From: Lachnospiraceae bacterium AC2028
GTDB lineage: Bacteria > Bacillota > Clostridia > Lachnospirales > Lachnospiraceae
DNA: 64,000 nucleotides
Direction of reading: 5' to 3'
NCBI GenBank assembly: GCA_000702685.1
Contig: JNJD01000010.1
Coordinates: 1-64,000 of the forward strand
Shown: piece after piece, positions 42,796-47,881 of the stretch
Position numbering within the stretch: the first letter of the stretch is position 1
How the letters are laid out: each line of letters starts with the position of its first letter
Notes under the pieces: generated by a model
Told to the model about the DNA's origin: nothing
The model's database searches: none
The model's input: the letters and a program-made list of their open reading frames with translations, nothing else
Made by a program: the position numbers and the translations under genes

Positions 42796-44268
42796 GTGCT
42801 TTTTAATTCGTTTTCTTTTGTTATATTTTTTCCGATAGTCACATTACTGTATTTTGTGATCCCGCATAAGTTCAGATATATCTGGCTTCTTATAGCGAGC
42901 TATTATTTCTATATGAACTGGGATGCAAGATACGCACTTCTGCTTGCGGGTGTCACCGCCGTCACTTTTTTCGGCGGATATATTCTCGGACGCACGGAAA
43001 AGAAAAAGATCAGGAAAGCGGTGCTTGCCGTCACTTTGCTGATAGTTTTCGGTCTTCTGTTTCTGTACAAATATCTCGGATTCTTCCTTATGAATCTGAA
43101 TCAAGCATTCTCTGCGCTGCACATCGGTTTTACGGTGACCGAATACAGCCTTGTTCTTCCTGTCGGTATTTCCTTCTATGTTTTCCAGGCAGCGGGATAT
43201 GTCATAGACGTTTACAAAAACGAACTTAAGCCTGAGAAGAACATTTTAAAATATGCGGCATTCGTGTCATTTTTCCCTCAGCTTGTTGCGGGACCCATTG
43301 AACGCGCCGGAAACCTTTTGCATCAGTTTGATGAAAAGCATAAATTTGATGCGGGCAGAGCGAAGAACGGACTTCTTCTCATGCTGTGGGGATTCTTTCT
43401 GAAGATGGTCATATCTGACCGCATTGCCATCTTTGTTGATGCGGTGTACGGACAGTTCGATGTATATGAGGGATGGTATCTTGTGATCGCATCGATGCTT
43501 TTTGCGATAAGGATCTACTGTGATTTCGCAGGCTATTCGACAATAGCGGTGGGAGCGGCTTCCGTGATGGGATTTACTCTTACGGAGAATTTCAGACAGC
43601 CCTATCTTGCCGCATCCGTCAAGGAATTCTGGAGAAGGTGGCATATCTCACTCACCGGATGGTTCAGGGACTATGTCTACATTCCTCTCGGAGGAAACAG
43701 GAAGGGCAGGGTAAGGAGCTGCTTCAACACTCTCATTGTTTTCCTGCTCAGCGGACTCTGGCACGGTGCGATGTGGAACTATGTCGTATGGGGCGGGATC
43801 AACGGTCTGTATCTTGTGATCTCGGATCTTTTCAAGCCGCTTCGCGCTAAGCTCGGAAAAGTGCTCGGCTGGAAGAGCGAAGCCCTGACCAACAGGATAC
43901 TCGGAATGATCGTTACATTTATACTGGTCGATATTTCGTGGGTATTCTTCCGTGCGGAAGGAACGGATCAGGCACTGCAGATCTTTACGCATATGCGCAA
44001 CATCGGAAATATCGGGATCTTTACGGACGGAAGCCTATATACCCTCGGACTTGATCAGAGGAACTTCTGGTTCATGCTGCTCTCGATAGGAATGCTTCTT
44101 TTCGTGGACATACTTCATGAGAATGGTATCCATGTGAGAGAGTGGCTTGAAAAACAGAATCTCTGGTTCAGAATACTGTTCCCGGTTCTTTTGATCGAAA
44201 CGATACTTATCTTCGGTATATGGGGAACGCAGTATGATGCTTCCGCGTTCATATATTTCAGGTTTTGA
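42796..44268 (+). CDS. MBOAT-family O-acyltransferase (AlgI/DltB-like)
   Basis: Polytopic membrane enzyme (490 residues, about ten membrane segments) that passes an acyl group, often acetyl, across the membrane to a surface glycan or teichoic acid. The N terminus LFNSFSFVIFFPIVTLLYFV and the block FFPQLVAGPIERA are characteristic, as are KEFWRRWHISLTGWFRDYVYIPLGG and the conserved histidine in LSGLWHGAMWNYVVWG. Start is a GTG with GAAAGG upstream. It is followed within ten bases by an SGNH-like partner, the usual pairing for alginate/peptidoglycan acetylation systems. Confidence 0.92.
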   Translation: MLFNSFSFVIFFPIVTLLYFVIPHKFRYIWLLIASYYFYMNWDARYALLLAGVTAVTFFGGYILGRTEKKKIRKAVLAVTLLIVFGLLFLYKYLGFFLMNLNQAFSALHIGFTVTEYSLVLPVGISFYVFQAAGYVIDVYKNELKPEKNILKYAAFVSFFPQLVAGPIERAGNLLHQFDEKHKFDAGRAKNGLLLMLWGFFLKMVISDRIAIFVDAVYGQFDVYEGWYLVIASMLFAIRIYCDFAGYSTIAVGAASVMGFTLTENFRQPYLAASVKEFWRRWHISLTGWFRDYVYIPLGGNRKGRVRSCFNTLIVFLLSGLWHGAMWNYVVWGGINGLYLVISDLFKPLRAKLGKVLGWKSEALTNRILGMIVTFILVDISWVFFRAEGTDQALQIFTHMRNIGNIGIFTDGSLYTLGLDQRNFWFMLLSIGMLLFVDILHENGIHVREWLEKQNLWFRILFPVLLIETILIFGIWGTQYDASAFIYFRF

Positions 44269-44278
44269 GTGTTTGAAT

Positions 44279-45538
44279 ATGAAAAAGATAATCAGATCGG
44301 TCATATCTTTAATACTGTTTGCCGTACTGTTAGTCTGCTCAACCTCTGCAGTCAGCGATCTGCTCAGGGACAGGGTCAACACTTCCAAGTACGACAGGTT
44401 CTATTCCGAAAAAGAAGACTTTGATGTTCTCTTTTTCGGCTCGAGCCGTGTGCTTGACGGAGTGGCACCGATGCAGCTCTGGAAGGATTACGGCATCCGT
44501 TCCTACAACATGGCACAGCACAATGAGAACGTGCTCGTATCATACTGGCAGCTGAAAAACGCATTGAATTATCAGACTCCGAAGGTAGTCTTCTTCGATG
44601 TTTCTCTTTTCAGTGCGAACATCGTTACGCCCGATTCCGAAAAGGGTTTGCAGGCATATCTTCATAAATCGCTCGACCATATGCCGTTTGGTATAACCAA
44701 GATTCAAGCTGTGAATGCACTTACGGACGGATATGATCTTAACGAATATCTTTTCCCGCTTGCGATCTATCACAACAGGTGGAGCACGCTGGATGAGGAG
44801 GCGGCCGTTCCCGAGCAGACCTTCATGGGAGGCGAGGACCGCATAAAGCTTGAGTATCAGCTTGTGGGCGCATGGGATGATTCCCTTGTTCTTGACAGGG
44901 ATGCATTCAATCCCGACCTGCTCGGAATGAACGATGTCATAGAGCTTTGCAGGGAGCATGATGTGGATGTCGTGTTCACCTGCGTTCCCGCTGCGGGAGA
45001 AAAGAATCAGTCTTACTTTTATCCTGCGATAAACGGATTTGCAAAATATTTTGAAGAAAAGGGTGTGCCCTTCCTGAATTTCTGCAGGGATGACCTGTTC
45101 ATTAACGGCAGGACCGATTATGCGGACGGAACACACCTCAATCCGAGCGGAAGCAGAAAGCTTACGCAGGCGTTCGGTGAATATCTGGTCTCGAATTATA
45201 CATTCGATGAACCGGATGCGGAGACGAAAGCCGTATGGGATGAAGACTACGAAAAATATGTCCTTACGAGGACGGGTGAGATCCTCGGATGCATAGGAAA
45301 CGATGATGTTTACGGATATCTCATGCTCATATCCGGAACGGAGGAATTCAGTGTAAAGGTTCTCGTTCCGTCGGAGGACTATGATCTCGACAGAAGGATC
45401 AAGAACTTCCTCTTCGATATGGGATTCTTCCCCGATTCATATATGGTCGATCCAACTTCCGACGTTGTTCTCCTAAGACTGGTGGATCTCAGGAGTTCGA
45501 GCGTGGTCGCCGAGATGCGGCTCCCCGCGCAGACGTGA
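44279..45538 (+). CDS. SGNH/DltD-like extracytoplasmic partner of the MBOAT protein
   Basis: A 419-residue protein with one N-terminal membrane anchor (KKIIRSVISLILFAVLLVC) and an exported domain. Motifs match SGNH hydrolases: DVLFFGSSRVLDG (block I, serine) and YADGTHLNPSGSRKL (block V, aspartate/histidine). It likely transfers the acyl group delivered by the MBOAT enzyme to the final glycan acceptor. The ATG at 44279 follows the MBOAT stop by ten bases; an earlier ATG inside the upstream gene is rejected. The last 90 residues form an added domain that I do not recognise. Confidence 0.82.
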   Translation: MKKIIRSVISLILFAVLLVCSTSAVSDLLRDRVNTSKYDRFYSEKEDFDVLFFGSSRVLDGVAPMQLWKDYGIRSYNMAQHNENVLVSYWQLKNALNYQTPKVVFFDVSLFSANIVTPDSEKGLQAYLHKSLDHMPFGITKIQAVNALTDGYDLNEYLFPLAIYHNRWSTLDEEAAVPEQTFMGGEDRIKLEYQLVGAWDDSLVLDRDAFNPDLLGMNDVIELCREHDVDVVFTCVPAAGEKNQSYFYPAINGFAKYFEEKGVPFLNFCRDDLFINGRTDYADGTHLNPSGSRKLTQAFGEYLVSNYTFDEPDAETKAVWDEDYEKYVLTRTGEILGCIGNDDVYGYLMLISGTEEFSVKVLVPSEDYDLDRRIKNFLFDMGFFPDSYMVDPTSDVVLLRLVDLRSSSVVAEMRLPAQT

Positions 45539-47189: not shown

Positions 47190-47578
47190 TTAAAGGCGCC
47201 ACCCGATATTCATCGAATGGCGCCTTTAGTGGATGGGTTCCTCAATATCCATTGGCGGATACCTCCTTATGTATATTTTGGTCCGTTTCCCCGCTACTTT
47301 TTTGACCGTCAGCTTCATTCTTCATACGGCTTTTTCATCCGAAGGCATATATTAAACGGAGCATTCTGTCTTCATAGGATGTTACGCACCTAATGTGCTC
47401 GCTGTGCCGTGTTTTCACTTTCCGATCGAGTACCCCGGGTACTGTGGGCCGTGGGTGGGTTTGTTTCGTTCAGTACATTGGTCTGCCCTCCAAATGCATT
47501 TACGGGTTGCTGTTTAGTTTCCCATTGGAGTGTACTTCCTTTCTAAAAGCTCTCTTTTTATTTTCGCTTTTGTTTTAT
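47190..47578 (-). ncRNA. Candidate structured non-coding RNA, minus strand
   Basis: No plausible protein on either strand. On the minus strand a near-consensus promoter (47613-47585) would start transcription near 47578, and a strong hairpin at 47228-47191 could end it, giving about 390 bases. Complementary arms along the transcript include AGTACACTCCAA (47536-47525) with TTGGAG (47493-47488) and TGTACT (47477-47472), the hairpin AGTACC/GGTACT (47443-47429), and CCGTTT (47359-47354) with AAACGG (47288-47283). It lacks signature sequences of tmRNA, RNase P, SRP and 6S RNA. A nine-codon frame with AAGGAGG (ATG at about 47254) lies near its 3' end. Existence and function are inferred. Confidence 0.5.
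47191..47228. terminator. Strong hairpin between coaX and the minus-strand RNA
   Basis: TAAAGGCGCCA / TGGCGCCTTTA form an 11-bp stem enclosing CGAT/ATCG with loop ATTC. T tracts are short in both directions. It probably ends coaX transcripts from one side and the minus-strand RNA from the other. Confidence 0.75.
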
Positions 47579-47584
47579 GTGCTA

Positions 47585-47613
47585 ATAATAATCTAAAAAA
47601 TTGCCCCTGTCAA
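47585..47613 (-). promoter_or_regulatory. Consensus-like promoter on the minus strand
   Basis: Read on the minus strand: -35 TTGACA (47613-47608), 17-base spacer, -10 TATTAT (47590-47585). This is the best -35 match noticed in the window, and no minus-strand gene lies downstream. Confidence 0.7.
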
Positions 47614-47881
47614 CATCTTTTTCTAAAAATTAGTAAACAAACTGTAAACTTTTGCGATAACGTTTTAGAATTGCGAGAATTTTCAGAAAACTCATTCCGA
47701 AAGCGTAGGCCAAAGTGCCCGAAACCCTTGAATTTTAAGGGTATCTTAAGGTTTTCGCACCCCCTAAAAAGGTTCACTTTCAGGGCAATTAATGGTATCC
47801 TATAGGTTGGGTTTAAAGGTTGATTTTACGGCAGTTTCAATACTTTTTCCCTAAAAAGAAAACCTGAAAGGAAATTTAGTC
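47614..47881 (+). promoter_or_regulatory. Upstream region and predicted promoter of thrH
   Basis: AT-rich, without a gene. A promoter is predicted on the plus strand: -35 TTCACT at 47773-47778, 17-base spacer, extended -10 TGGTATCCT with hexamer at 47796-47801. A small inverted repeat CCCTTGAATTTTAAGGG lies at about 47726-47742. AAAGGAAA precedes the thrH start. Confidence 0.55.

Follow-up and report, generated by a model that had tools for sequence, protein, structure and literature searches.

A conserved standalone RNA carrying tandem micro-ORFs in the Lachnospiraceae, a possible member of a class of minigene-array RNAs

The window, a stretch of 64,000 nucleotides from the rumen isolate Lachnospiraceae bacterium AC2028, carries a minus-strand locus at 47190-47613 among genes that run in the opposite direction. 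The named neighbours, a folate-family ECF S component (a weak match), coaX, thrH, truA and a PseG-like gene, all lie on the plus strand, as the initial annotation had stated, and the RNA gene is divergent from thrH. The promoter claimed for the minus strand, TTGACA and TATTAT separated by 17 bp, is present and matches the consensus at 11 of 12 positions; looser promoter-like sites are expected by chance at ~1.4 per kb, and this promoter is retained in 13 of 13 homologues. Transcription would start at ~47578-47580. From the promoter the locus extends for ~390 nt and closes with a 3' hairpin. The region had been described as lacking a gene, and no ordinary gene is found there; it contains three micro-ORFs of 2, 3 and 8 codons (Table 1), one of which is the "tiny frame" already noted. 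The strong hairpin reported at the far end has 13 pairs in the window, and 12-13 of the 13 are retained in 12 genomes, while the U-tract that follows is poor in several members.

Table 1. Features of the minus-strand locus and of the region upstream of its promoter, in the direction of transcription.
Feature	Position in window	Strand	Remarks
CodY-box-like site AGTTTTCTGAAAATT	47678..47692	minus	14/15 to AATTTTCWGAAAATT; 64 bp upstream of -35
AAACGTTATCG, putative LacI-family/CcpA-like half/operator motif	47655..47665	minus	from alignment
-35 element TTGACA	47613-47608	minus	
-10 element TATTAT	47590-47585	minus	
Micro-ORF 1, ATG GGA AAC TAA (MGN)	47514..47525	minus	SD-like AGGAAG at 47535-47540
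Micro-ORF 2, ATG TAC TGA (MY)	47470..47478	minus	SD GGAGGG at 47486-47491
Structured core, 118 nt	47312..47429	minus	four helices bearing compensatory changes; confined to the window genus; covariance model R2
Micro-ORF 3, MDIEEPIH	47226..47252	minus	SD AGGAGG at 47262-47267
Terminator-like hairpin AAAGGCGCCATTCGAT...ATCGGGTGGCGCCTTT	47192..47227	minus	stem overlaps micro-ORF 3 stop; weak U-tract

Searched at the DNA level, 59 relatives yielded the full element in 12 genomes belonging to the window's genus, its own included, at 70-89% identity, and a second search added a thirteenth, strongly diverged homologue (G025, locus L039), so that the element is conserved in 13 of the 31 genomes of the genus. 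When a public genome collection was scanned by pattern, the matches were 12 contigs, every one with a Lachnospiraceae title; one of them, JNKP01000001 (locus L024), belongs to the cultured isolate P6A3. The thrH gene is present in 25 of the 31 genus genomes, and the element was not found upstream of thrH in those hit-less genomes that were inspected. In all 13 genomes that carry the element the next downstream gene is convergent and begins 14-87 nt past the hairpin, and the RNA thus regulates no gene in cis in this genus. On these comparisons it is almost certainly a real, standalone and conserved unit. The scan against Rfam that had been suggested matched no known class: Rfam 15 gave no match at the gathering cut-off for the window and 20 related loci, and only chance matches at permissive thresholds. 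The absence of a tmRNA signature noted initially also holds, as ARAGORN found no tRNA or tmRNA in the window, RF00023 was likewise negative at the locus, and the tmRNA of this genome lies on another contig (G000:C14:75223-75599). The RNA resembles tmRNA in its similar size and short internal ORF, but lacks tRNA-like ends.

The three micro-ORFs (each frame is written here up to its stop codon) are conserved in the genus: their start, stop and phase are kept where the remaining sequence has diverged. Micro-ORF 1 encodes MGN or MGH in 13 of 13 genomes, with AAC, CAC or CAT as its third codon and TAA or TGA as its stop; its SD is AGGAGG in most relatives, and the AGGAAG of the window is weaker. 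Micro-ORF 2 is MY in 13 of 13, followed by TGA or TAG. Micro-ORF 3, the frame that the initial annotation had picked out together with its ribosome binding site, is conserved across the homologues as MD[INF]EEPI[HYCKS], with synonymous changes and one replacement of the ATG start by TTG, and its stop overlaps the base of the terminator hairpin. The stops of the three frames switch among TAA, TGA and TAG while their position is fixed in all homologues. In the most diverged homologue all three survive amid diverged DNA; it is here that the third frame starts with TTG and carries synonymous changes, GAG to GAA and CCC to CCT. A bias towards queuosine codons (Asn, His, Tyr, Asp), guessed from the window group, was discarded, since other members use Gly, Ala, Lys and Arg.

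The same design recurs outside the genus, in 28 genomes that belong to five further genera of the Lachnospiraceae, for a total of 41 genomes in six genera. When the pattern GGAGGGYRRWCCRATGTACTRR was run against 396 genomes with one mismatch allowed, it matched one other genus, represented by G351, and the reversed control of the pattern gave zero matches. The G351 locus has its own promoter, the same MY unit as micro-ORF 2, and then MKLLNIHR touching the terminator. Its sequence led to G075, which holds two tandem copies with MK, MGR or MG, and MKLRFNS or MKLRLNS; at L086 of this genome (1214-2090) these are two complete RNA genes, each with a promoter and a terminator. A search with a stop-free pattern reached G195 (MG, MKGRDP, MKLQIIHR) and G205 (MA, MGGRDP, MKLEIIH), and searches around these two found many further members in both genera. 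A third subgroup (L132-L134) contains frames such as MKI, MRK and MHTEF. The layout shared by these RNAs is a promoter, one to six tandem units of the form AGGAGG-NN-RGTCC-R-NTG plus one or two codons and a stop, and a last ORF at the terminator; each unit follows a strong Shine-Dalgarno, and the units share the leader AGGAGGNNRGUCCR-NUG. The last ORF has 5-9 residues, often MKLxIIH, and in every group, that of the window included, its stop adjoins the terminator hairpin. An additional ORF of 5-7 residues ending in Pro-stop is often present (MKGRDP). Relatives have up to seven small frames per RNA: L128 carries six micro-ORFs (MYS, MDK, MGT, MRT, MRT, MKS) followed by MKLEIIHL, and the minimal members L098, L126 and L129 have one micro-ORF and the last ORF.

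The class is very probably common to six genera. Weak matches at L085, L087, L106, L108-L113, L117, L135 and L139 were treated as chance or doubtful and not counted, and a look-alike at L090 in G143 proved to be a coding repeat. No member was found in viral, phage and plasmid collections, where the few matches were coding sequence or look-alike terminators. The members are short and diverged and most searches were made by sequence pattern, so apparent absence elsewhere carries little weight. Many members outside the genus (L083, L086, L089, L091 and relatives) share the terminator loop CTGATGACGAGAAAGTC, whose conservation exceeds the need of a plain terminator. On inspection the loop resembles a hammerhead, with core parts present in the letters, but stem III is missing and the resemblance was rejected. 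An apparent T-box leader (GGGTGGCACCGC) lies just downstream of the micro-ORF RNA in L101, at ~1700-1990. An MBOAT O-acyltransferase gene and a following gene that resembles its usual partner occupy 42796-45538 on the plus strand of the window, and an MBOAT gene also adjoins the RNA of G351 (L067); this proximity is probably a coincidence.

Evidence for translation comes from the position of the stops. The leader motif was defined without reference to stops, and it has 66 matches over 38 member loci. In 56 of the 66, frame 0 contains exactly one or two sense codons before a stop, as compared with 14 in frame +1 and 1 in frame +2, although the members are related and the 56 units are not 56 independent events. 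These 56 have the make-up of a minigene: an SD, a start, one or two sense codons and an in-frame stop. Most of the other motifs open ORFs of 4-6 residues, with about five situated in coding DNA that flanks the loci. The first seed patterns (the scan of the public collection and GGAGGGYRRWCCRATGTACTRR) themselves held start or stop letters, while the seed for G195 and G205 was free of stops. Unit lengths vary by whole codons and all three stop codons are used. Changes in MKLxIIH and MKGRDP are mainly synonymous, with four forms of the Leu codon, GAA alternating with GAG, and CAC with CAT. We consider it quite likely from these patterns that the micro-ORFs are selected as translated units.

Stronger structural evidence is found in the middle core, which the initial annotation had not singled out. 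In the core 99.5% of cells are paired, compared with 14-38% in slid-partner controls, and double-sided (compensatory) changes occur at 4 pairs (10 cells), so that covarying pairs, proposed at the outset as a check of a structured RNA, do exist among the homologues. When a covariance model of the core was searched against 396 family genomes its own genome was the only match, which indicates that the core is restricted to the genus, and the shortest relatives are too small to accommodate its 118 nt. Over its full length the RNA has a modest folding energy (z = -1.9). A two-part helix had been drawn from AGTACA/TGTACT and CTCCAA/TTGGAG; it is present and mostly kept, with 5-6 of 6 and 4-6 of 6 pairs, but double-sided changes are absent and covariation lends it no support. 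The helices proposed to switch, GGTATCC/GGATATT and TGGAT/ATCCA, are both retained nearly throughout, but they show no compensatory change, and because both sit in the coding part of micro-ORF 3 their conservation is ambiguous. The earlier picture of a standalone structured RNA therefore holds in part. The RNA stands alone, matches nothing in Rfam, has a conserved promoter and terminator and has compensatory pairs in its core, but folding is not supported as the main point, because at the greatest divergence, in L039 and the five other genera, the three SD/micro-ORF units and the ORF-terminator junction outlast the core.

Upstream of the promoter, the sequence suggests how the RNA could be controlled. 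The CodY box consensus has been reported (PMC5314169), and the best match to it within 140 bp upstream of the -35 element has a class mean of 12.3 out of 15, versus 10.1 in shuffles. A related CodY-like site lies upstream of most class members, at positions that cluster at 30-33, 50-52 and 64-65 bp, and this placement would be compatible with an activator. The class is possibly under a CodY-like regulator, and the box suggests coupling to branched-chain amino acid/GTP status. Each of the 13 homologues in the window genus also keeps the motif AAACGTTATCG, in the form AAACGTTWTCG, which lies downstream of the CodY-like box and ahead of the promoter.

What such an RNA might do is a separate question. 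We lean, by a modest degree, towards reading it as one of an undescribed class of "minigene-array" RNAs, each standing alone behind its own promoter, that would work by being translated. Ribosomes would load efficiently on the micro-ORFs, terminate almost immediately and re-initiate, and the RNA would hold several initiating or terminating ribosomes with an output of only di- to nonapeptides. Its most probable action would be in trans, as a sink for the translation machinery, or a sensor of it, that is regulated by nutrient status. As a sink, it would sequester initiating ribosomes and tRNAs on abortive minigenes; as a sensor, its fold, 3' end and half-life would report ribosome occupancy. We give about an even chance to action in trans as a ribosome sink or ribosome-gated RNA rather than through a peptide product. 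The fuller version we put forward only tentatively: nutrient-controlled minigene arrays would trap ribosomes, release factors or initiator tRNA in futile rounds of initiation and termination, and would serve as a natural RNA-based brake or gauge of translation. A pure ribosome sink would not need conserved longer peptides, and this counts against the sink reading.

Several known systems share parts of this design. Expression of artificial or phage minigenes inhibits protein synthesis via peptidyl-tRNA drop-off, according to the works listed in PMC8012679. In E. coli, ssrA tagging is induced by DP-stop and EP-stop ends (PMC7246954), although an expression screen cited in that paper disagreed on the DP-stop effect. 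The bar minigene of phage lambda (a start, one codon and a stop behind an SD) is similar in having 2-3-codon ORFs with a strong SD, but here the minigenes stand in chromosomal tandem arrays on a dedicated RNA, which has a promoter of its own, a longer last ORF and a terminator and is conserved in several genera. The mg2 element of axe-txe is a natural two-codon minigene that acts in cis, possibly via mRNA stability (PMC8708949). It shares with the present RNA a natural two-codon ORF and an effect of translation rather than of the product; however, mg2 lies inside an operon and its cis effect is on txe, whereas no gene follows the RNA studied here.

A reading that we consider unlikely is that the last peptide (MDIEEPIH or MKLxIIH, plus MKGRDP if present) would be the product, either trans-acting or arresting the ribosome, and that the ORFs of one or two codons would be regulatory uORFs. 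The mainly synonymous changes in the last ORF and MKGRDP favour it, as does the economy of the minimal members, which have little beyond one micro-ORF and the last ORF. Pro-stop ends like the RDP-stop found here are known to slow termination (PMC7246954). The Sinorhizobium attenuator leader peptide peTrpL also acts in trans (PMC7298713). However, a secretion signal and an adjoining receptor gene are both absent, the peptides vary by group (MDIEEPIH, MKLQIIH, MKLRFNS, MKLKEPF, MHTEF, MEIFK), and up to six micro-ORFs look excessive as leaders for one octapeptide.

Dual-function sRNAs such as RNAIII/hld, SgrS/SgrT and SR1 are both structured and translated, but the frames in the present RNA are 2-9 codons long and tandem, rather than one protein of tens of residues. 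About as improbable as a peptide product is an ordinary trans-acting antisense sRNA, in which the core and loops would be the active parts and the SDs only 30S docking points that protect the RNA from RNases. The compensatory pairs in the core of the window genus are in keeping with this, and in the units of L102, L104, L107 and L138 the SD, the GGNCC leader and the stop are intact while the start is replaced by AAG, AAA, ACA and CCG. For these start-less units, 30S docking or decay fits better than obligatory translation. There is also a precedent for a two-codon minigene that may stabilise its mRNA in cis (PMC8708949). The sequence AATCTC, complementary to the SD region, precedes the GRDP-type ORF in 10 of 11 members versus 6% expected; tested individually, the AATCTC/SD pairings are not significant. 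Docking, however, would work without an in-frame stop at codon 2-3, yet most of the leader units keep such a stop, and the core is missing from the other genera.

The attenuator-derived sRNA rnTrpL/peTrpL (PMC7298713) is likewise a short RNA with a leader peptide, alternative pairings and an end terminator; in contrast to attenuator leaders, the present RNA has no downstream operon, carries several ORFs of one or two codons, and has a stop that abuts the terminator hairpin. An orphan transcription attenuator, in which leader peptides and terminator would control a downstream gene, is very improbable and for the window locus disfavoured: a leader ORF does lie next to an intrinsic terminator, and a ribosome terminating at the last stop would cover the 5' arm of the hairpin, but the downstream gene is convergent rather than co-oriented throughout the window genus and in L089, L123, L124 and L126, and elsewhere is unrelated from member to member. 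Just as remote is a decoy for a CsrA/RsmA-type GGA-binding protein in the manner of CsrB/RsmZ, with the AGGAGG/GGA...UCC repeats as its sites, since the GGA motifs are repeated, some in possible small hairpins on visual inspection, but phased start and stop codons are unnecessary for a protein decoy and the GGA is placed unlike the known CsrA hexaloop.

Genes shorter than ~30 codons go unannotated and searches for RNA families look for folds, so an RNA that works through frames of 2-9 codons escapes both methods. Two-codon minigenes have long been familiar as laboratory and phage curiosities; here, in bacteria common in the rumen and gut, they form conserved arrays on the chromosome. If the minigene-array reading is confirmed, each of these RNAs would offer one to six natural minigenes that can be counted, and with them a means of testing the load that strong SDs, short ORFs and Pro-stop ends place on ribosomes, or what such features report about them; it would also follow that bacteria maintain dedicated genes for which initiating and terminating translation is in itself the function.
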